The position numbers and the translations under genes are program-made. Positions 4,358 through 43,073 of a stretch of 43,110 nucleotides of DNA are shown piece after piece. How positions within the stretch are numbered: position 1 is the first letter of the stretch; each line of letters begins with the position of its first letter. The DNA is taken from NCBI GenBank assembly GCA_015065295.1, contig SVQN01000015.1, forward strand, positions 1-43,110, read 5' to 3'. Origin of the DNA: Oscillospiraceae bacterium (GTDB lineage: Bacteria > Bacillota > Clostridia > Oscillospirales > CAG-272). The notes beneath the pieces were generated by a model. The model was given only the letters and a program-made list of their open reading frames with translations. It ran no database searches and was not told where the DNA came from.

Positions 4358-5140
4358 TTAATTTTCTTCCTCCACGTTGATGACGCGCACGCCGTTTTCC
4401 CGTGCAAGAGCATCCATCTCTGCGGGAAGGGCGGAACTGGTAATCAGCACGTCGATGTTTTCGAAGGTGCAGAACGTGTACGGAAGGGATTTGTCGATCT
4501 TCGACGAATCCATGAGGATAATCACCAGCCGAGCCTTTTCCACCACGATCCGCTTCAGCTCGCATTCGCTGTAGTTGCCGACGGTAAAACCGCTGCGCGC
4601 CGAAAGTCCGGACGGGGAGAGGAGGGCAATGTCAATGTTGATGTCCGACAGGAACCGCGTTGCCTGAAGACCGGTGATGGTCTGGTTGTCGCGGTCGAGA
4701 CGTCCGCCGACGACATTGACGATCGGCAGCCCGATCTTGCACAGTTCCAGAGCGGACACGGGGTCAGTGGTCGTGAAGGTAAAACGGTCGTTCGGAACGT
4801 AGGGCACGATCCGCTGGAGGGTCGAACCGGAGTCAATGAAGATCGACCGGCCGGTTTCGAGGAATTCCGCCGCACGCGCCGTGATGGAGTCCTTGGAGTG
4901 GATATTCTCCTTCATCCGCGCGGTGATCGAGTCGTCGGTCTGCGTGGTGATGAACTTCATGCTCCGTGCGCCGCCGCGTACCTTGATCGCTTCGTGTTCG
5001 CGTTCAAAGTATTCGATGTCGCGCCGGAGGGTCATGCCGGACACGTCCGGGAACATTTCCTCAAGCTCTTTCAGCGAGATGAAAGGCTTGGACAAAAGCA
5101 GGGACCGGATCTGTTCGCGTCGTTCGTTGTACAATCGCAT
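4358..5140 (-). CDS. DeoR-family transcriptional regulator
   Basis: A 260-residue DeoR/GlpR-type repressor. The N-terminal helix-turn-helix (about 5-58) reads RREQIRSLLLSKPFISLKEL followed by SGMTLRRDIEYFE, and the C-terminal effector domain has the family's DSGSTLQRIVPYVP motif, shared with sugar-phosphate-sensing DeoR proteins. The start ATG follows GAAAGGAG. It is the first gene of the leftward operon with the dehydrogenase genes, which suggests local control of the operon. The ligand is unknown; relatives bind phosphorylated sugars or polyols. A dyad in its own promoter is described separately. Confidence 0.92.
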   Translation of the reverse strand: MRLYNERREQIRSLLLSKPFISLKELEEMFPDVSGMTLRRDIEYFEREHEAIKVRGGARSMKFITTQTDDSITARMKENIHSKDSITARAAEFLETGRSIFIDSGSTLQRIVPYVPNDRFTFTTTDPVSALELCKIGLPIVNVVGGRLDRDNQTITGLQATRFLSDINIDIALLSPSGLSARSGFTVGNYSECELKRIVVEKARLVIILMDSSKIDKSLPYTFCTFENIDVLITSSALPAEMDALARENGVRVINVEEEN

Positions 5141-5209
5141 TCGCTCCTTTCACTGTGAGTTTGGAAATTAAACTTCCTTTAAGATCAGGAAATCACATGA
5201 TTATGATAT

Positions 5210-5239
5210 ATTTTAACACATTCTGTGTGAAATTGTCAA
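5210..5239 (-). promoter_or_regulatory. SigA-type promoter of the deoR-dehydrogenase operon with dyad
   Basis: Read on the minus strand: TTGACA (5239-5234), an 18-nt spacer and TAAAAT (5215-5210). The spacer contains the perfect dyad ACACA-TTC-TGTGT (5216-5228), placed where a repressor would block RNA polymerase. Assigning it to the DeoR protein is inference. Confidence 0.65.
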
Positions 5240-5355
5240 CCGTTCCGCGTGATAAAATAGGAAAACGCGGTATTGAACAAATCTTGAAGGGGGATATGCA
5301 GGTGTTTTGTTCAAAAATATGTAATAAAATGGCGGTGGTTTTTGCGGGAGGCGTA

Positions 5356-5364
5356 TGATATAAT
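5356..5364 (+). promoter_or_regulatory. Extended -10 promoter of an orphan short transcription unit
   Basis: TGA-TATAAT at 5356-5364 is an extended -10 element. No good -35 is visible. It points right, towards GGAGG (5391-5395), an ATG (5406) and a terminator ending about 5470, and not towards any annotated gene. Confidence 0.5.
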
Positions 5365-5405
5365 TGATTTGAAGAAATCTGATTTTTTATGGAGGACAAT
5401 CGGAT

Positions 5406-5492
5406 ATGAAAAACAACGGATGGGGAATAGCGAATATCCAAAATACCGGCTTCAGCAGCCGGTATTTTTTCACTTATTTTGCACGTTCCTGA
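5406..5492 (+). CDS. Possible 28-residue leader-like peptide
   Basis: A short frame beginning MKNNGWGIANIQNTGF, with GGAGG 10 nt upstream and an extended -10 promoter before that. The frame runs through the terminator hairpin (5442-5466) and ends inside the 3' end of murC on the other strand. GGAUAU (5402-5407) at the start codon can pair with AUAUCC (5434-5439), so initiation could be masked. The peptide resembles nothing I know; the unit may simply be a small RNA of about 100 nt. Low confidence as a protein. Confidence 0.2.
   Translation: MKNNGWGIANIQNTGFSSRYFFTYFARS
5442..5470 (+). terminator. Rho-independent terminator
   Basis: Perfect 10-bp stem (5442-5451 with 5457-5466), 5-nt loop, followed on the plus strand by TTTT. 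It also lies just after the murC stop and can serve murC on the minus strand, although the T-run is weaker there. Confidence 0.8.
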
Positions 5493-6904
5493 ATCATTTC
5501 CGCGACCTTAATCACATCGCCCGCACCCATGACGAGGATCATGTCCCCCTCGCCGGAGTGTCCGTCCGCGTATTCTGCCGTTTCCTCGAACGTGTGGATT
5601 ACCCGGCATTTCTTTCCCGCCGCCGCGATCTTTTCCGCGAGCATATCGGACGATACCCCGTAAATGTTCGTTTCCCGTGCCGGATAAATGTCGCACAGGA
5701 CAATCTCATCCGCACCGCAGTTCACGAACGCTTCCACGAATTCGTCGAACAGTTCCGCCGTCCGGGAGAACGTGTGCGGCTGGAAAATGAGGTTCAGCCT
5801 GCCCTGACAGATTTTCCGCGCCCCTTTCACCGATGCCGCGATTTCCGTCGGATGATGCGCGTAATCCGTGAACAGAGCAGCACCGGAAGCTGTCGTGCAT
5901 ATTTTTTCCATCCGGCGGCAGATGCCCTCGTATTTTCCAAGTCCTTCCGCTGCCTTTTCCGGCGAAATTCCGCTGACACACGCCGCCGCACACGCCGCCA
6001 GTGCATCCGCGATGAGGTGTTCGCCGGGAACGTTCAGCGTGACACGCGCGATTTTTCTGCCGTACGCCATCAGATCAAATGCCGGATAGCCGCCGCATTC
6101 GCCTTCATTTGCCGAATAAAAATCCGCATCGGGATTGTTCCGTCCGAAAGTAACGAGATGCCCCGCGTAGCCTTCCGCTGCCTTCATGCAGTTTTCATCG
6201 TTCCGGTTCACAATTGCGTACCCATTTTCACCTGTAATGGCGAGAAATTTTTTAAACGAATCAATAATTTGTTCGATGGAATGGAAATAATCGAGGTGAT
6301 CCATCTCGATATTCAGCACAATTGCGGCGGACGGATTGAAATCGAGGAAGGAATCCATGTATTCGCACGCCTCAAACGCGAAGTATTCGTGTTTTCCGAT
6401 GATATCGACGGTGCCGGATTCCTTCATGGCTGCGCCGTTGAAGACGGTCGGTTCCACACCGGCGTTCGTGAGGATGCGGGAAACCATGCCCGTGGTGGTG
6501 CTTTTTCCGTGCGTGCCGGATACGCCGATACGGTGGCGGAAGCCAGTCATAATGTAGCCGAGATAGTCGGCGCGGGAGATACGCGGGATGCCGTGTTCTC
6601 CGGCATAGACGTATTCCGGATTGGTTTCCGGCATGGCGACGGTATAAACGAGAGCGTCGCAGTCCTTCATGTGTTCGCCGTCCGCTTCATAGTAGACGGT
6701 GATGCCCATGTCCTCGAGCTTGCGGGTGACTGCGCTTTCGCTGCGGTCGTAACCGGAGACGCGGTGTCCCATCAGGTGGCTGATATGGGCAAGCGCGTTC
6801 ATGCTGACGCCGCCGATTCCCGCAAAGAAAATGTGCCGCTGTCCGGAGGATTCCAGAAGATTTTTTATGTATTCTGCGCCGAAGTGCGTGTTCGATAAAG
6901 CCAT
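5474..6904 (-). CDS. murC: UDP-N-acetylmuramate--L-alanine ligase
   Basis: Cytoplasmic Mur ligase that adds L-Ala to UDP-MurNAc, the first peptide step of peptidoglycan precursor synthesis. The 476 residues show the N-terminal UDP-binding Rossmann motif GIGGVSMNALAHI, the ATP P-loop GVSGTHGKSTTTGM, the NIEMDHLDYFHS region characteristic of MurC, and the C-terminal domain with LIFQPHTFSR. Length is normal. Start ATG follows AAAAGGATG. It stands alone on the minus strand, divergent from spoVG. This connects to diaminopimelate production by the DapF domain nearby, because the peptide stem needs meso-DAP in many Clostridia. Confidence 0.97.
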   Translation of the reverse strand: MALSNTHFGAEYIKNLLESSGQRHIFFAGIGGVSMNALAHISHLMGHRVSGYDRSESAVTRKLEDMGITVYYEADGEHMKDCDALVYTVAMPETNPEYVYAGEHGIPRISRADYLGYIMTGFRHRIGVSGTHGKSTTTGMVSRILTNAGVEPTVFNGAAMKESGTVDIIGKHEYFAFEACEYMDSFLDFNPSAAIVLNIEMDHLDYFHSIEQIIDSFKKFLAITGENGYAIVNRNDENCMKAAEGYAGHLVTFGRNNPDADFYSANEGECGGYPAFDLMAYGRKIARVTLNVPGEHLIADALAACAAACVSGISPEKAAEGLGKYEGICRRMEKICTTASGAALFTDYAHHPTEIAASVKGARKICQGRLNLIFQPHTFSRTAELFDEFVEAFVNCGADEIVLCDIYPARETNIYGVSSDMLAEKIAAAGKKCRVIHTFEETAEYADGHSGEGDMILVMGAGDVIKVAEMIQERAK

Positions 6905-6945
6905 AAGATCATCCTTTTCGGTAGAGTAGATTGGTATTCACATTT

Positions 6946-6954
6946 ATTATAACA
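6946..6954 (-). promoter_or_regulatory. Probable extended -10 promoter of murC
   Basis: On the minus strand TGT-TATAAT (TATAAT at 6951-6946) is an extended -10 element about 42 nt upstream of the murC start. The -35 region is weak. Confidence 0.5.
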
Positions 6955-7011
6955 TATTTCTTAAAAAAAGATACATTCCTTTTAAAAAATATTTATGAAA
7001 GCCTTGAATTA

Positions 7012-7040
7012 TTTTCACAATGTCCGTGTATAATTATAAT
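7012..7040 (+). promoter_or_regulatory. Probable spoVG promoter
   Basis: Two overlapping TATAAT hexamers lie at 7029-7034 and 7035-7040. The second has TTTTCA (7012-7017) at a 17-nt spacing; the first has TTGAAT (7004-7009) at 19 nt. Either would start transcription about 30 nt before the gene. Confidence 0.55.
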
Positions 7041-7074
7041 CAGCCAAGACAAAATGAAAAGGGGACACAACAGA

Positions 7075-7395
7075 ATGGTTATCACCGATATCAAAGTAAG
7101 AAAGTTATTTGAAGAAGGCCCGATGAAGGCGATCGTATCCGTCACATTTGACGATCAGCTCGCGCTCCACGACATCAAGGTCATCAGTGTCCGGGACAAA
7201 AACTTTATCGTTATGCCCAGCCGCAAGAATCCCGACGGTACCTACCGTGATATCGTTCATCCGATCAATACCGATTTCCGCGCTCATCTTGAAGAAGAAG
7301 TCCTTCGTGCATACGAAGAAGAGCTTGCCCGCGCGGCTGCCGACCGCGAAACGGCACTTCTCGAAGATTCCGAAGCGGAACCCGCGGGCGTATAA
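7075..7395 (+). CDS. spoVG: SpoVG family regulator
   Basis: A 106-residue SpoVG homologue, a small nucleic-acid-binding regulator first known from sporulation septation but present in many non-sporulating Firmicutes. It begins MVITDIKVRKLFEEGPMKAI and carries the diagnostic VRDKNFIVMPSRKNPDGTYRD and HPINTDFR segments (SpoVG core about 1-84), followed by an acidic Ala/Glu-rich tail. I chose the ATG at 7075 behind AAAAGGGG; the open frame extends upstream to 6931 but that part does not match the family. Single gene between its own promoter and terminator. Its presence does not prove that the organism sporulates. Confidence 0.95.
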   Translation: MVITDIKVRKLFEEGPMKAIVSVTFDDQLALHDIKVISVRDKNFIVMPSRKNPDGTYRDIVHPINTDFRAHLEEEVLRAYEEELARAAADRETALLEDSEAEPAGV

Positions 7396-7415
7396 CTGTG
7401 TGTATACTGGAAAAT

Positions 7416-7454
7416 ATCCCTGCCGGAAGAGCAATCTCCGCAGGGATGTTTTTT
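7416..7454 (+). terminator. Rho-independent terminator after spoVG
   Basis: Stem of 8 bp (7416-7423 with 7440-7447), extended by GGA/TCC pairs beyond a bulge, followed by G and six T residues. Confidence 0.85.
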
Positions 7455-7626
7455 GCCTGAAAAAATATGTACACGCCGTTCATACTGCGATTGCAGACCG
7501 TACATACAACAGGAACAATATTTATGAATGCGTTCGTACAAAAACAGACCGGATCGGACGCAATGTTTGTGCAGCCGGATAAAAATAATATTTTCGCGGA
7601 TTTCTCTGTATTTTCCGGAGATTCTG

Positions 7627-7652
7627 TGGTATAATTATACGCATAAATTTAT
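7627..7652 (+). promoter_or_regulatory. carB-dapF promoter with AT-rich palindrome
   Basis: An extended -10 TGG-TATAAT lies at 7627-7635, about 60 nt before the ATG; the -35 is weak. Just downstream is the palindrome ATAAATTTAT (7643-7652). Arginine repressor boxes in Firmicutes are AT-rich palindromes of similar look, but the match is too short to claim. The 170 nt before it (7455-7626) hold nothing else convincing. Confidence 0.45.
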
Positions 7653-7694
7653 AAATAACCATACACTTTGACAACCCAAAGGAGATGTGACAAT

Positions 7695-10600
7695 ATGCCA
7701 AGAGATATTACCATCCGCAAGGTACTGCTGATCGGCTCGGGACCGATCGTCATCGGGCAGGCGGCGGAGTTTGACTATGCCGGAACGCAGGCGGCAAAGG
7801 CACTGCGCGAAGAGGGAATCGAGGTCGTTCTCGTCAATTCCAACCCCGCAACGATCATGACCGACTGTGCCATGGCCGACCGTATTTATCTGGAACCGCT
7901 GACGGAAGATGTCGTCAAGCGCATCATTCTTGAAGAAAAGCCCGACAGCATTCTCGGCACTCTCGGCGGCCAGACCGGTCTCAACCTTGCCATGAAGCTC
8001 GAACACGACGGGTTCCTTGCCGCGCACGGCGTCCGTCTGCTGGGAGTTGCCGCCGATACCATCGACCGCGCCGAAGACCGTCAGCTCTTCAAGGACGCGA
8101 TGGACAAAATCGGTCAGCCGACCGTTGCGTCCGATATCACCACCACCGTGGACGGCGCGCTTGCTCTTGCGGAACGTCTCGGCTATCCGGTCATTGTCCG
8201 TCCCGCTTTCACGCTGGGCGGCACCGGCGGCGGAATTGCGAACAATCCCGATGAACTTGCCGAAATTGCAGAAACCGGGATTCAGGCATCCCCGATCAGC
8301 CAGATTCTCATCGAACGCTGCATCGCCGGATGGAAAGAAATCGAATTTGAGGTTATCCGCGACAATGCGGGGAACCACATCACCGTCTGCTCGATGGAAA
8401 ACATCGACCCCGTCGGCATCCATACCGGGGACAGCATCGTTGCCGCACCCGCCCTCACGCTGGCGATGCCCGAATATACCATGCTTGCCAATTCCGCTCT
8501 CGCCATCATCGACGAGCTGAAGATCACCGGCGGCTGCAACGTCCAGTTTGCCCTCAATCCCGACAGTTTTGAATATGCCGTCATCGAGGTCAATCCCCGT
8601 GTTTCCCGTTCCTCTGCCCTCGCATCCAAGGCGACCGGCTATCCGATTGCCAAGGTTGCCGCAAAAATCGCGGTCGGCTACAATCTCGACGAAATCGAAA
8701 ACAAAGTCACCGGTACGACCATGGCGTGCTTTGAACCCGCGATTGACTATGTGGTCGTCAAGTTCCCGCGATGGCCGTTCGACAAATTTGTTTACGCGAC
8801 CCGCCGTCTCGGCACGCAGATGAAAGCGACCGGCGAAGTCATGGCGATTGCGCCGGGCTTTGAAGCGGCGTTCATGAAGGCAGTGCGCGGGGCATCCATC
8901 GGCATGGATTCTCCCGGAAGCGCGAAGTACCGCGAAATTCCCACGGAAGACCTGCCCTCTCTCATTGCCGGTGGAACGGACGAACGGATTTTCTTCGTCT
9001 ATGAAGCGATCCGCCGCGGCAGTCTGACCATCGAAGACATTTTTACCATCACAAAAATCGACCGCTGGTTCCTCACCAAACTGAAGAAAATCGCGGATGT
9101 GGAAAATGCGCTCGAATCCGCCGGAGAAACCCTCTCCTTCGATCTGTACAAACAGGCGAAGCTCATCGGCTTCCCGGACAGCGCAGTTTCCCGCCTGACG
9201 GGGATGAAATCTCTGCCGTACGCACTTCCCGCATCGTTCCGCACGGTCGACACCTGCGCGGCGGAATTCGGTGCGGACACGCCGTATTTCTACTCCACCT
9301 ACGACGAAGACGACGAAGCCTCCGCGTTTATCTCCACGCATAAGAAAAGCCCGCTCGGCACCGTCATGGTCGTCGGCTCCGGACCGATCCGCATCGGACA
9401 GGGGATTGAATTCGACTATGCGTCCGTCCACTGCGTCTGGGCACTGAAAAAAGCCGGCTACGATGTCATCATTGTCAACAACAATCCCGAAACCGTGTCC
9501 ACCGACTTTGACACGGCAGACCGTCTTTATTTCGAACCGCTGACCCCCGAAGACGTTGCCAACATTATTAAAGCAGAAAAGCCGGTCGGCGCGGTCGTGG
9601 CATTCGGCGGACAGACCGCGATCAAGCTCACCCGCCATATCGCGGCGTGCGGCGTTCCGATCATCGGCACCTCCCCCGACATGATCGACTGCGCGGAAGA
9701 CCGCGAACGCTTTGACGAACTTCTTGAACGCTACAAAATCAAGCGTCCCGTCGGCGAAACCGTCATGACGGCGGACGAGGCTCTCGACGTTGCGGAACGG
9801 GTCGGCTATCCCGTTCTTCTGCGTCCGTCCTACGTTCTCGGCGGACAGAACATGATTATCGCCTTCACCGAAGCGGACATCCGTGAATACATGGCGATCA
9901 TCCTCGCGCAGGGCATCGAAAACCCCGTTCTCGTGGACAAGTATCTCATGGGAACCGAACTGGAAGTGGACGCGATCTGCGACGGTGACGACATTCTTAT
10001 TCCCGGGATCATGGAACACGTCGAACGTACCGGTATCCATTCCGGTGACTCCATTGCCGTTTATCCCGCGCAGAACGTGGACGACGACATGACCGACTAC
10101 ATCATCCGCCACACCAGAAATCTCGCGCTCGCGCTGGAAACGAGAGGGCTGATTAATATCCAGTACCTCATTTATAACGGGGAACTGTACGTCATCGAGG
10201 TCAACCCGCGTTCCTCCCGCACCGTTCCTTACATCAGCAAAGTGACCGGCATCCCGATGGTTGACCTTGCCACCCGCTGTATGCTCGGTGAAAAGCTCCG
10301 CGATATGGAATTCGGCACCGGATTATACCGTCCGTCGCCGTACGTTGCGGTCAAGGTTCCCGTATTCTCCTTTGAAAAGCTCAGCGGACTGGACACCGCG
10401 CTCGGTCCCGAAATGAAGTCCACCGGCGAAGTTCTCGGACTGGCCGGAACGTTCGGCGAGGCACTGTTCAAAGGCCTCCGCGCGGCAGGGTACAAGCTCC
10501 GCGAAAACGGTGGCGTATTCCTTTCCGTCCGCGATACCGACAAGGGCGAAATCGGCCCGATTGCCAAGAAATTCGCATCCCTCGGCTTCCGCATTTACGC

Positions 10601-11786
10601 GACCGAAAATACCGCGCAGGCGATCCGCCGTCACGGGGTCAAGGTGATTGCCGTTTCCCACCTCGATGAAGCCGGAACCACCCCGCGCGAGCTGATCGCC
10701 GAAGGACTGATCGACTACATTGTGTCCACCTCCGCCAAGGGACGTGACCCGCGGTACGAAAGCGTCCGTCTCCGCCGTCTTGCGGTCGAACACGCGATTC
10801 CGTGTCTGACGGCACTTGATACCGCCAATGCCGTTGCAGACAGCATCGCCACCCGCTGGAACGAACACTGCACCGAACTTGTGGACATCAACAATCTCCG
10901 CGGCGGCAAGATTTCCCTCGATTATGTGAAAATGCACACCTGCGGAAACGACTACATCTACTTCAACTGCATCGACCGGAACATCGAAAATCCGGAAGGA
11001 CTGTCCATCCGCTTTGCCGACCGTCATTACGGTATCGGCGGCGACGGTACGATCACGATTCTTCCCGCCGATACGCCCGGTATGACCGGATCGGCGGATG
11101 CGTCCATGCGGATGTTCAACCGCGACGGCAGTGAAGCGAAAATGTGCGGCAACGCCATTGGCTGTGTGGCAAAATATCTCTACGAAAACGGCATTGTACC
11201 CAAGCGTGAAATGCGGATTGACACCCTCTCCGGCACCAAGCCCGTCCGTCTCGTTACCCGGAACGGCAAAGCGATCCGTGCGAAGGTCGGCATGGGTACG
11301 CCGGACTTTTCGCCCGATGCGGTTCCGGTGAATCTCACCTCCAAAACCGGCCGGATCGTCGGCGAACGTGCGGAACTGGCGGGGGATATCTACAAAATCA
11401 CCTGTCTCAGCATGGGCAATCCGCACTGTGTCATTTTCGCGCATGAAACGGAAGAATTCGCGGCGGTTCTCGCCGATCTCGAATCCTTCGGCTACGCCAT
11501 CGAGCATGATCCGCATTTCCCGGAACGCACAAATGTCGAATTCGTTCAGGTGATCGACGATCATACCCTCATCGCGCACATCTGGGAACGCGGTTCCGGC
11601 GAAACGTACGCCTGCGGTACGGGTGCGTGCGCGGCGGCGGTTGCGGCGGTCGAAAACGGCTTCTGCAAGCCCGGCGACATTACCGTTTATCTCAAGGGCG
11701 GCAGTCTGACCATCGAATACAGCGGCGGCAATGTGGCAATGACCGGGGAAACCTGTGAAATTTACCGAGGAACTGTGGAAATATAA
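7695..11786 (+). CDS. carB-dapF: CarB-DapF fusion: carbamoyl-phosphate synthase large subunit / diaminopimelate epimerase
   Basis: A single 1363-residue frame. Residues 1 to about 1070 are a full CarB: two ATP-grasp halves starting IRKVLLIGSGPIVIGQ and VMVVGSGPIRIGQGIEFDY, and an allosteric MGS-like domain (about 935-1070, from NGGVFLSVRDTDKGEIG). It makes carbamoyl phosphate for arginine and pyrimidines with CarA, which is not in this window. After a linker of roughly 15-20 residues, residues about 1077-1363 are a full DapF, converting LL- to meso-diaminopimelate. Both catalytic cysteines are present: C1151 in MCGNAIGC and C1307 in YACGTGA. Deviations: HTCGND for the usual HGxGND, and Gly for the usual Arg in CGNxIRC. 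The ATG at 7695 follows AAAGGAG; the upstream in-frame extension is rejected. No stop codon or ribosome binding site separates the parts. Confidence 0.95.
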   Translation: MPRDITIRKVLLIGSGPIVIGQAAEFDYAGTQAAKALREEGIEVVLVNSNPATIMTDCAMADRIYLEPLTEDVVKRIILEEKPDSILGTLGGQTGLNLAMKLEHDGFLAAHGVRLLGVAADTIDRAEDRQLFKDAMDKIGQPTVASDITTTVDGALALAERLGYPVIVRPAFTLGGTGGGIANNPDELAEIAETGIQASPISQILIERCIAGWKEIEFEVIRDNAGNHITVCSMENIDPVGIHTGDSIVAAPALTLAMPEYTMLANSALAIIDELKITGGCNVQFALNPDSFEYAVIEVNPRVSRSSALASKATGYPIAKVAAKIAVGYNLDEIENKVTGTTMACFEPAIDYVVVKFPRWPFDKFVYATRRLGTQMKATGEVMAIAPGFEAAFMKAVRGASIGMDSPGSAKYREIPTEDLPSLIAGGTDERIFFVYEAIRRGSLTIEDIFTITKIDRWFLTKLKKIADVENALESAGETLSFDLYKQAKLIGFPDSAVSRLTGMKSLPYALPASFRTVDTCAAEFGADTPYFYSTYDEDDEASAFISTHKKSPLGTVMVVGSGPIRIGQGIEFDYASVHCVWALKKAGYDVIIVNNNPETVSTDFDTADRLYFEPLTPEDVANIIKAEKPVGAVVAFGGQTAIKLTRHIAACGVPIIGTSPDMIDCAEDRERFDELLERYKIKRPVGETVMTADEALDVAERVGYPVLLRPSYVLGGQNMIIAFTEADIREYMAIILAQGIENPVLVDKYLMGTELEVDAICDGDDILIPGIMEHVERTGIHSGDSIAVYPAQNVDDDMTDYIIRHTRNLALALETRGLINIQYLIYNGELYVIEVNPRSSRTVPYISKVTGIPMVDLATRCMLGEKLRDMEFGTGLYRPSPYVAVKVPVFSFEKLSGLDTALGPEMKSTGEVLGLAGTFGEALFKGLRAAGYKLRENGGVFLSVRDTDKGEIGPIAKKFASLGFRIYATENTAQAIRRHGVKVIAVSHLDEAGTTPRELIAEGLIDYIVSTSAKGRDPRYESVRLRRLAVEHAIPCLTALDTANAVADSIATRWNEHCTELVDINNLRGGKISLDYVKMHTCGNDYIYFNCIDRNIENPEGLSIRFADRHYGIGGDGTITILPADTPGMTGSADASMRMFNRDGSEAKMCGNAIGCVAKYLYENGIVPKREMRIDTLSGTKPVRLVTRNGKAIRAKVGMGTPDFSPDAVPVNLTSKTGRIVGERAELAGDIYKITCLSMGNPHCVIFAHETEEFAAVLADLESFGYAIEHDPHFPERTNVEFVQVIDDHTLIAHIWERGSGETYACGTGACAAAVAAVENGFCKPGDITVYLKGGSLTIEYSGGNVAMTGETCEIYRGTVEI

Positions 11787-11922: not shown

Positions 11923-13410
11923 ATGAAGAAAACACTTGCGATTCTCCTGATCTTAGCCGCACTGCTTCCGGCGTTCACCGCCTGTGCGGACAAGGGCGGA
12001 GAAACCACGAACACCAATACTCCCACCGCTCAGTCGGATACGGCTTCCAATTCCGGTTCCGAAAAAGAAGAAGAAACCCGTTATACCGCCAATATTCCCG
12101 AAGGCACCGACTATCAGGGCGCATCCTTCACGGTTCTTGCATATCCGCAGGATGTCGGTATCTGGAGCGACGTTGACTGGAATGCCGAAGAAATGAACGG
12201 CGAAGCCATCAACGACGCGGTTTACACCAGAACGCTCAAGACCGAAGAAAAACTCAATGTCAATGTCAAGACAGAATTTCTTGACGGCTACGGCAACTCC
12301 ACTGCGATCCAGCAGTCCGTTACCGCGCAGGACAACGCATATCAGCTTGCTACCAACACGCTCATGTCCGTGTTTACCATGAGCCAGAGCGGTCTTCTCG
12401 CCGAACTGAACGACTATGCCGCACAGGGTACGCTCGACCTCGGCGCAGCATGGTGGGACCAGAACTGTATCAACGACCTTTCCATCGCTCACAAGAACTA
12501 TATGCTTACCGGTGACATCGGTACCATGTACAAGAAGTCCATCGGCGCGATCATGTTCAACAAGGCGATCCTCGGCGACTATCAGATCGAAGACCCGTAC
12601 GCTCTCATGGAAAGCGGCAAGTGGACGGTTGACAAGATGGTTGAAATGGGTACCAAGGTATCCGATGACCTCAACGGCGACGGCGTTATGGACACCAATG
12701 ACCGTTACGGTCTGATCTGCTTCTGCGATATGATGGGTCTTGCATTCATCGGCTGCGGCGTTGAAATGGCGGCAAAGGACGAAAACGACGTTCCTTCCGT
12801 TACTCTTTACTCCGAAAAGGCAGTTTCCGTTGTAGACAAGCTCGCTACGCTCATGTACGACGAAAATCTCAGCTGGAGCTGGTCCAAGGCCGGTCTGACC
12901 GAAGATACCGCATTCTCCATGTATCAGCAGGACCAGTCCCTGTTCTACTACGGGGAACTCCACGCTGTTGCAACCATGCGTTCCATGGACTCTCCGTTCG
13001 GCGTACTTCCCATGCCGAAGTATGACGATACTCAGGAAAACTACTACCACTGCGTAAACCCGAACGTAGCTTCCGTATACTTCATTCCGATCACCAACGT
13101 GGAATACGCAATGACCGGTCATGTGATGGACACCCTCGGTGCAGAATCCAAGAACGACCTCACGCCCGCTTATTATGACGTAACCCTGATCGGTAAGGTC
13201 AGCCGTGACGCGGAATCCGCAGCTTCTCTCGATATCATCATCGACACCATCCGTTACGACATCGGCTATCTCTCCGGCATCGGCATCAGCAATATGCTCA
13301 ACACCATGGCAAACTCCTTCAACACTGACCTCGCTTCCCAGTATCAGAAGCAGTCCAAGGTCTTCACCAAGCTCCTCGACCGTATTGTCGAAACCTTCGT
13401 TGAAGGCTGA
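11923..13410 (+). CDS. ABC-type extracellular solute-binding lipoprotein
   Basis: A 495-residue lipoprotein. Residues 1-20 form a lipoprotein signal peptide with Cys21 in FTAC as lipidation site, followed by a Thr/Ser/Asn/Glu-rich tether to about residue 45 and then a family-1-like substrate-binding fold (YQGASFTVLAYPQD onwards). An EF-hand-like loop DLNGDGVMDTND begins at Asp249, as seen in other carbohydrate-binding proteins of gut Clostridia. The ligand is probably a sugar or oligosaccharide, by family habit only. No permease or ATPase gene is adjacent, so it is an orphan. It has its own consensus promoter and ends in a terminator shared with the convergent symporter gene. Confidence 0.88.
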   Translation: MKKTLAILLILAALLPAFTACADKGGETTNTNTPTAQSDTASNSGSEKEEETRYTANIPEGTDYQGASFTVLAYPQDVGIWSDVDWNAEEMNGEAINDAVYTRTLKTEEKLNVNVKTEFLDGYGNSTAIQQSVTAQDNAYQLATNTLMSVFTMSQSGLLAELNDYAAQGTLDLGAAWWDQNCINDLSIAHKNYMLTGDIGTMYKKSIGAIMFNKAILGDYQIEDPYALMESGKWTVDKMVEMGTKVSDDLNGDGVMDTNDRYGLICFCDMMGLAFIGCGVEMAAKDENDVPSVTLYSEKAVSVVDKLATLMYDENLSWSWSKAGLTEDTAFSMYQQDQSLFYYGELHAVATMRSMDSPFGVLPMPKYDDTQENYYHCVNPNVASVYFIPITNVEYAMTGHVMDTLGAESKNDLTPAYYDVTLIGKVSRDAESAASLDIIIDTIRYDIGYLSGIGISNMLNTMANSFNTDLASQYQKQSKVFTKLLDRIVETFVEG

Positions 13411-42802: not shown

Positions 42803-43073
42803 ATCCGAAATATTATAAATGCGATGATGGGGAGAAACGGACGGAAATCCGTGCAGAGAGCTGTCGGTCGGTGCAAGACAGCCGGAGGAATGTTTGATAC
42901 TCACCCCGAAGCAGCCGTTTGAACGTACGGGTGACCGTGCCAGTAGATGCGGACGGAACCCTCCGTTACAGGGGCAGGGCATCATGTGTGTCCGGGAGAG
43001 GGTAGTTTCTACCGAAAAAGAGTGGTAACACGAGGTTTTTCGCCGCGTCTCTTTGCAGAGATGGGCGTTTTTT
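42803..43073 (+). ncRNA. T-box riboswitch, probably leucine-specific
   Basis: Leader of about 270 nt. Stem I contains the AGAGAGC and GGTCGGTGCAA conserved elements near 42855-42885 and a specifier region GATACTCACCCC (near 42896-42907), where the specifier codon aligns as CUC (Leu). The T-box AGTGGTAACACGA is at 43021-43033; its UGGU bulge would pair with the 3' end ACCA, matching the A discriminator of tRNA-Leu. A terminator follows. A leucyl-tRNA synthetase or leucine gene is expected just beyond the window, which ends in AAGGA. The specifier alignment was done by eye. Confidence 0.85.
43041..43073 (+). terminator. T-box terminator
   Basis: Stem CGCC/GGGCG pairs (43041-43044 with 43064-43067) and TCTCT/AGAGA (43048-43052 with 43057-43061), followed by TTTTTT. 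It competes with the antiterminator that contains the T-box sequence. Confidence 0.8.

Follow-up and report, generated by a model that had tools for sequence, protein, structure and literature searches.

The fused gene and its product

The window analysed here is a stretch of 43,110 nucleotides from an Oscillospiraceae bacterium (assembly GCA_015065295.1, contig SVQN01000015.1; our genome G000), and the gene under study in it joins carB, of carbamoyl-phosphate synthetase (CPSase), to dapF, for diaminopimelate (DAP) epimerase. A single open frame runs from the ATG at 7695 to the stop codon at 11784–11786 and gives a protein of 1363 residues. The new part, as read from the sequences, is the repeated loss of catalytic cysteines from the fused DapF domains of its relatives. 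The features of the gene are as follows.

7680..7684, forward strand: AGGAG, a Shine–Dalgarno-like sequence with 10 bases between AGGAG and the ATG (sequence reading)
7695..11786, forward strand: carB::dapF fusion gene, 1363 residues plus stop (open-reading-frame calls and NCBIfam profile matches)
7695..10898, forward strand: CarB part, residues 1–1068, with two preATP-grasp/ATP-grasp halves, an oligomerisation domain and the MGS allosteric domain
10554..10811, forward strand: MGS-like allosteric domain of CarB, residues 954–1039
10899..10910, forward strand: junction, residues 1069–1072 (alignment)
10911..11783, forward strand: DapF part, residues 1073–1363
11145..11147, forward strand: C1151, first catalytic cysteine of DapF (alignment; many relatives have no cysteine here)
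11160..11162, forward strand: G1156, an arginine in stand-alone DapFs
11613..11615, forward strand: C1307, second catalytic cysteine of DapF

Both parts match NCBIfam profiles well above the cut-offs: the CarB part matches PRK05294 over residues 1–1054 (1430 bits, cut-off 599) and TIGR01369 (1391 bits, cut-off 1027), and the DapF part matches TIGR00652 over residues 1076–1361 (243 bits, cut-off 114.65). The preliminary description of a full CarB and a full DapF in one frame, with both catalytic cysteines, is thus borne out. All 15 of the CarB catalytic positions that were checked, which lie in both ATP-grasp halves and for which we assume the E. coli numbering, are identical in the window protein. 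Lys993, which we take to be the UMP site in the MGS domain of E. coli CarB, has a histidine as its equivalent in the window. In the DapF part, C1151 corresponds to Cys75 in the numbering of PMC12039745 and to C73 of E. coli DapF. The DAP ligands named in that paper (Asn66, Asn164, Asn197, Glu215, Arg216 and Thr226) were mapped onto the window through PDB entry 9mro, whose numbering agrees with that of the paper, and all are present (N1142, N1242, N1280, E1298, R1299 and T1309). With both cysteines in place, the window copy may still be an enzyme.

Two motifs of the DapF part had been called unusual. This holds for the first, in which the conserved arginine of CGNxxRC is replaced by G1156: the position is arginine in 106 of 116 aligned fused sequences and in all 35 stand-alone ones, and glycine in six of the 116, among them five of the ten sequences from the window's genus. 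HTCGND is less out of the ordinary, T1082 occurring in 11 and C1083 in 80 of the 116 fused sequences. At the junction, no ribosome-binding site was seen by eye, as had been noted before, whereas the unfused sister locus L136, with 47 bases between the carB stop and the dapF ATG, has AAGGAGG 5' of that ATG. The L136 CarB ends in LVDINTL and its DapF begins with MVLNFTKM; by alignment these ends nearly abut in the window protein, so the true linker is only four residues long (1069–1072).

Distribution of the fusion

We sampled 197 genomes of the order, 291 of the class and 199 of the phylum, and counted as fused any match to the DapF-part query in frame with CarB; for the order, matches with an open frame of >600 residues were counted. 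The fusion recurs in related taxa, including other orders and classes, and is found in many Bacillota that are anaerobes or live in the gut: at least 83 of the 197 order genomes carry it, in 20 families, as do at least 31 genomes of the class sample outside the order (besides G000, G053 and G084 inside it) and at least six of the phylum sample (five outside the class, and G000). The single-contig genomes G414 and G683 are among the carriers, and named carriers include Neglectibacter timonensis, Intestinimonas butyriciproducens and Candidatus Avimonas. The named loci were retrieved with window-derived peptide patterns, and because one pattern spans C1151, forms lacking this cysteine are under-represented among them (52 of 57 named sequences are intact). 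Seven genomes (G080, G113, G139, G167, G060, G083 and G221) have fused frames of 1487–1547 residues, possibly with an N-terminal extension, and in L081 and L132 the fused frame is broken within CarB, by sequencing error or as a pseudogene. A literature search found no title or abstract opening on a CarB::DapF fusion; its coverage of subscription journals and preprints was thin.

Loss of catalytic cysteines with a kept DAP pocket

The first catalytic cysteine is kept in 81 of 116 fused sequences versus 35 of 35 stand-alone ones. In the order sample a catalytic cysteine is missing from 64 of the 83 fused domains: the first is replaced by Ala in 39, Gly in 12, Phe in five and Ser in four, the second by Ser in three, and both are lost in one. 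Further stand-alone DapFs have both cysteines in every case (11/11, making 45/45 after removal of duplicates). With so many fused domains lacking a catalytic cysteine, retention of the fusion cannot in general be explained by epimerase activity. A tree was built from 100 full-length fused proteins, of which 25 lack a cysteine; it requires 11 changes of cysteine state, at least nine of them forced by supported branches, and several replacement letters are involved. The DapF-only tree has seven changes, only one of them forced; the backbones of such trees are weak, and the count thus rests on the full-length tree.

The DAP pocket has fared differently. Across the 64 cysteine-less sequences the six ligand columns are kept at 98–100%, whereas only 31 of 57 other columns that are invariant in stand-alone DapFs are kept at ≥97% (p = 0.034 for the contrast, uncorrected for kinship). 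N1085, the Asn13 equivalent on the catalytic side, is Asp in 14 of the 64, and S1301 is kept in only 16%. The combination proposed as the mark of a dead DapF, cysteine lost and ligand residues kept, is seen in these 64 domains and is absent from the window protein. For the DapF part, the ratio of nonsynonymous to synonymous substitution rates (dN/dS) is 0.01–0.16 in the 12 of 16 pairs that allowed an estimate, cysteine-less pairs included; the other four pairs are saturated, and several of the estimates are rough, with dS >1. The data support a true fusion that is conserved and under purifying selection, and the repeated loss of the cysteine with retention of the fold and of the DAP-holding residues suggests that the domain can have a sensing or scaffolding role in place of an enzymatic one.

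Other routes to meso-DAP

As another route to meso-DAP we counted a second DapF or a meso-DAP dehydrogenase (Ddh); Ddh was searched for in G000 and in order genomes with a single DapF, the 46 other order genomes, with an extra DapF, lying outside that search. PF01678 matches nothing but the fused protein in the 36 order genomes that have a single DapF hit; 23 of these fused copies lack a cysteine (19 of the 23 genomes have Ddh) and 13 have both (seven of the 13 have Ddh). Among the 73 fusion-bearing genomes with another route 13 copies are intact and 60 have lost a cysteine; among the ten without, six are intact and four are not (Fisher p = 0.008). At ≥95% completeness the corresponding numbers are 10 intact and 26 lost with a route, and five and one without (p = 0.016); the five intact copies belong to genomes in which neither a second DapF nor Ddh was found above the cut-off. 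Among 19 chosen genomes outside the order, a second DapF occurs in seven of ten with a cysteine-less fusion and in three of nine with an intact one (Ddh outside this count).

In the window's genus both cysteines are kept in all ten fused sequences; a second DapF was not seen in five of its 11 fusion-bearing genomes and Ddh was found in ten of the 11, these genomes being 71–92% complete. G000 itself has a second, stand-alone dapF on contig C74 and also Ddh, which weakens the functional claim that had been made for the fused copy.

Origin and operon context

On a CarB tree of 128 sequences the fused label changes twice. A careful tree of 38 of these (26 of the 100 fused and 12 of the 28 unfused) places the 26 fused sequences in one clade (96/96) that also contains the unfused L033. 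A grouping of the fused sequences that excludes L033 is rejected (p = 2e-5), so this locus is best read as having lost its DapF domain; it is a CarB gene at 4515–7739 in G054. Sister to the fused clade (100/100) is L136, with separate carB and dapF genes in the same kind of operon. On the weakly supported DapF tree the label changes four times, with the fused L050/L054 and L160/L199 among stand-alone DapFs. Long frames containing CarB and DapF were selected for the trees and for the junction-length set, a choice that keeps truncated fusions out of both. Best supported by the trees is a fused gene that would have arisen once, deep in Bacillota, when carB was joined to a downstream dapF. Between D1042 and K1079, 98 of the 100 distinct fused proteins share a single length. 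The same degree of constancy is reached by 56% of all 48-residue windows along the protein, and we therefore set aside the idea of a special linker and give this constancy little weight. In L106 (2724–6852) carA is followed directly by a dapF whose product groups with the fused ones and carB is absent, which suggests that carB was lost from a fusion there.

At least 1.5 kb of upstream sequence is available for 69 of the 100 different fused genes, and in 63 of these the gene immediately before the fusion is carA. The other six are the window gene and those of L070, L071, L072, L192 and L202. An ANTAR gene is found upstream in 25 and purF in five of 62 loci; on the downstream side, pyrG or dapL is present in 34 of the 63 loci with enough flank. 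In L098 and L100 the order is glnA, ANTAR, carA, carB::dapF, pyrG, dapL, and in L103, L120 and L125 it is glnA-ANTAR-dapF-pyrG-dapL with carAB not there. DapF and DapL thus travel, in shared operons, with enzymes that spend glutamine or glutamate nitrogen, and PMC3369931 ties ANTAR proteins to nitrogen genes. That there is no established link between the two pathways had been put too strongly, as carB and dapF are operon neighbours among glutamine- and glutamate-using enzymes in relatives. In L028, L029, L030, L036 and L038 a second CarB paralogue (∼50% identical) lies in a carA-carB-dapF-dapL cluster with a separate dapF and with asnB or purF upstream; the carB-dapF neighbourhood therefore recurs without fusion. 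A stand-alone dapF stands within about 0.2–2 kb after carB::dapF in L082 (1642–6834), L085 (243–6852) and L196.

The window's genome and neighbouring features

G000 is a 2.9 Mb draft in 135 contigs and is 71% complete. It has a second, unfused CarB on contig C47, 50% identical and adjoining carA, and two carA genes, one next to that unfused CarB (C47:8295) and one at C67:42386. As neither adjoins the fusion, its CarA would be supplied in trans by one of the two; carA adjoins none of the ten fused loci of the genus in the stretches examined. The nearest records are the metagenome-assembled genomes of L070 (water buffalo cecum) and L071 (goat cecum), with about 91% identity over the whole protein. 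Two neighbours of the window gene lie outside the fusion.

7075..7395, forward strand: spoVG, the upstream neighbour in the window's genus
5474..6904, reverse strand: murC, a divergent neighbour

In the genus, spoVG is upstream in nine of ten different fused loci, with murC in view in seven of these nine; L072 has neither nearby. Rfam at the gathering threshold found no riboswitch or attenuator near carB::dapF, its only match in the window being a T-box leader (RF00230, 96 bits, 42815–43055) near the window end. A 495-residue frame at 11923–13410 has a secreted-like start and no Pfam or NCBIfam match, and is overlapped by a frame on the opposite strand.

A proposed role for the DapF domain

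We propose that the fused domain is mainly a DAP sensor or scaffold and in some lineages also the cell's epimerase. On this proposal carB and the next dapF downstream in a glutamine-use operon would have been joined once, and the fusion kept since with an almost fixed junction. The lasting job of the DapF domain would be to serve CarB: most likely it would bind LL- or meso-DAP and relay a signal to the adjoining MGS domain, by which carbamoyl-phosphate synthesis, for pyrimidines and arginine, would be matched to wall-precursor supply. Epimerase activity would be the older function, kept mainly where the genome lacks an alternative route to meso-DAP, and also in some other cases; in the window protein, where both cysteines remain, both roles could be filled. 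As a whole this account, a single fusion followed by service to CarB of a domain for which we infer DAP sensing, seems to us a leading but tentative one, its chances somewhat short of even. The bolder statement is more doubtful still: that DAP regulates CPSase throughout a large branch of Bacillota by way of a domesticated DapF that repeatedly exchanged catalysis for sensing, and that wall-precursor supply is thereby wired directly, through allostery, to pyrimidine and arginine synthesis. A precedent for DapF as a non-catalytic regulator comes from PMC4227774, in which the C73A/C217A variant of E. coli DapF, without epimerase activity, still binds and stimulates RppH.

Several observations weigh against the sensor proposal. 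Several of the dN/dS values are rough, as stated above. The association of cysteine loss with another route is not significant when kinship is respected, in an independent-pairs test that had too few pairs. Four cysteine-less genomes of the order show no other route (one of them, G062, at ≥95% completeness), and outside the order three of ten cysteine-less genomes show no second DapF. The window copy keeps its catalytic cysteines, and the dead-domain argument is thus not directly applicable to it. The DapF tree may reflect domain exchange or further fusions in place of a single origin, and the constancy of the junction is not exceptional because CarB itself hardly varies in length. CPSase is a textbook case of allosteric control, with UMP, IMP and ornithine as effectors, and the lysine that we take to be at the UMP site (K993) is kept in 83 of 100 fused proteins; in general, then, the earlier allosteric input has not been displaced. 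A replacement of UMP control by DAP control is therefore unsupported in general; some lineages, and the window with its histidine, differ.

The strongest rival is that a redundant enzyme, attached to an essential one, has drifted. Here the protein would be a plain bifunctional enzyme that provides 1:1 dosage and co-translation of two products from a nitrogen-controlled operon. In genomes that also have Ddh or a second DapF, the epimerase site would have decayed by drift, the domain being kept since its removal would damage CarB. This is a serious contender, although we think it probably not the right one. The operon neighbours agree with it (carA upstream in 63/69, pyrG or dapL downstream in 34/63), as does the control of nitrogen genes by ANTAR regulators (PMC3369931). 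So do the genomes whose only DapF is the fused one: both cysteines are present in 13 of these 36, and in five of the six that are at least 95% complete and also without Ddh. Under drift, however, one would not expect all six DAP-ligand positions to be spared while changes accumulate elsewhere among the invariant positions, and dN/dS in the DapF part is low even without the cysteines. The preliminary suggestion that the fusion tethers wall-precursor synthesis to CarB, or couples the dosage of the two, is likewise weakened as a general account by the 64 cysteine-less domains; in the window species, where the cysteines are kept, tethering or dosage coupling is possible.

The domain could instead give CarAB structural support or help it to oligomerise, or offer another protein a place to dock, with no sensing of DAP. 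The near-fixed junction (98/100) and the part played by E. coli DapF as a non-catalytic partner of RppH (PMC4227774) would fit, but the selective retention of the DAP pocket would not, and we consider this unlikely. Less likely again is that the cysteine-less domains bind or act on another amino acid, as a new substrate or by one-base chemistry: DapF relatives with other substrates exist (an O-ureido-serine racemase, 7vdy, is among the PDB matches) and S1301 and N1085 have changed in the proportions given above, yet the residues that contact the distal amino-acid group of DAP are kept. An assembly or annotation artefact, which a 71% complete draft in 135 contigs might suggest, has a negligible chance, and an assembly artefact is ruled out, as the same frame occurs in 100 different proteins, in the single-contig G414 and G683 and in N. 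timonensis and I. butyriciproducens.

Relation to known systems

In the fused proteins the 15 catalytic positions of CarB, in the numbering that we assume, are conserved in 100 of 100 bar one X. The human CPSase CPS1 has a glutaminase-like domain that lost its catalytic cysteine, and offers a parallel, as an allosterically controlled CPSase in which a dead enzyme domain has been retained, although the domain, the protein end and the ligand are different. Window residues 1–1048 align with residues 1–1051 of E. coli CarB (1BXR/1JDB; TIGR01369, PRK05294), which differs in having no DapF domain of ∼290 residues after MGS; in the window's genus, moreover, carA is not adjacent. The window copy resembles DapF (TIGR00652; PDB entries 2OTN and 9MRO) in its full-length match, both cysteines and all DAP ligands, and departs from it in being the C-terminal domain of CarB, with G1156 in place of the conserved arginine; of the order's 83 fused proteins, 64 lack a catalytic cysteine. 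As in the E. coli DapF–RppH pair described in PMC4227774, DapF would act here on a partner enzyme independently of its epimerase activity; there the two are separate proteins, whereas here the link is covalent, the partner is CPSase and the regulation is one that we infer.

Implications

For annotation, a CarB of ∼1350 residues can hide a genome's only DapF, and in other genomes it would be wrong to score the fused DapF as an epimerase. The nine or more changes of cysteine state on supported branches are natural replicates in which a catalytic residue was lost and the ligand pocket kept, and they make the evolution of a sensor from an enzyme directly testable. If the sensor proposal is true, a covalent and recurrent DAP-binding domain adds a wall-precursor input to CPSase allostery, and this could account for the way in which these anaerobes keep nucleotide, arginine and peptidoglycan growth in balance.

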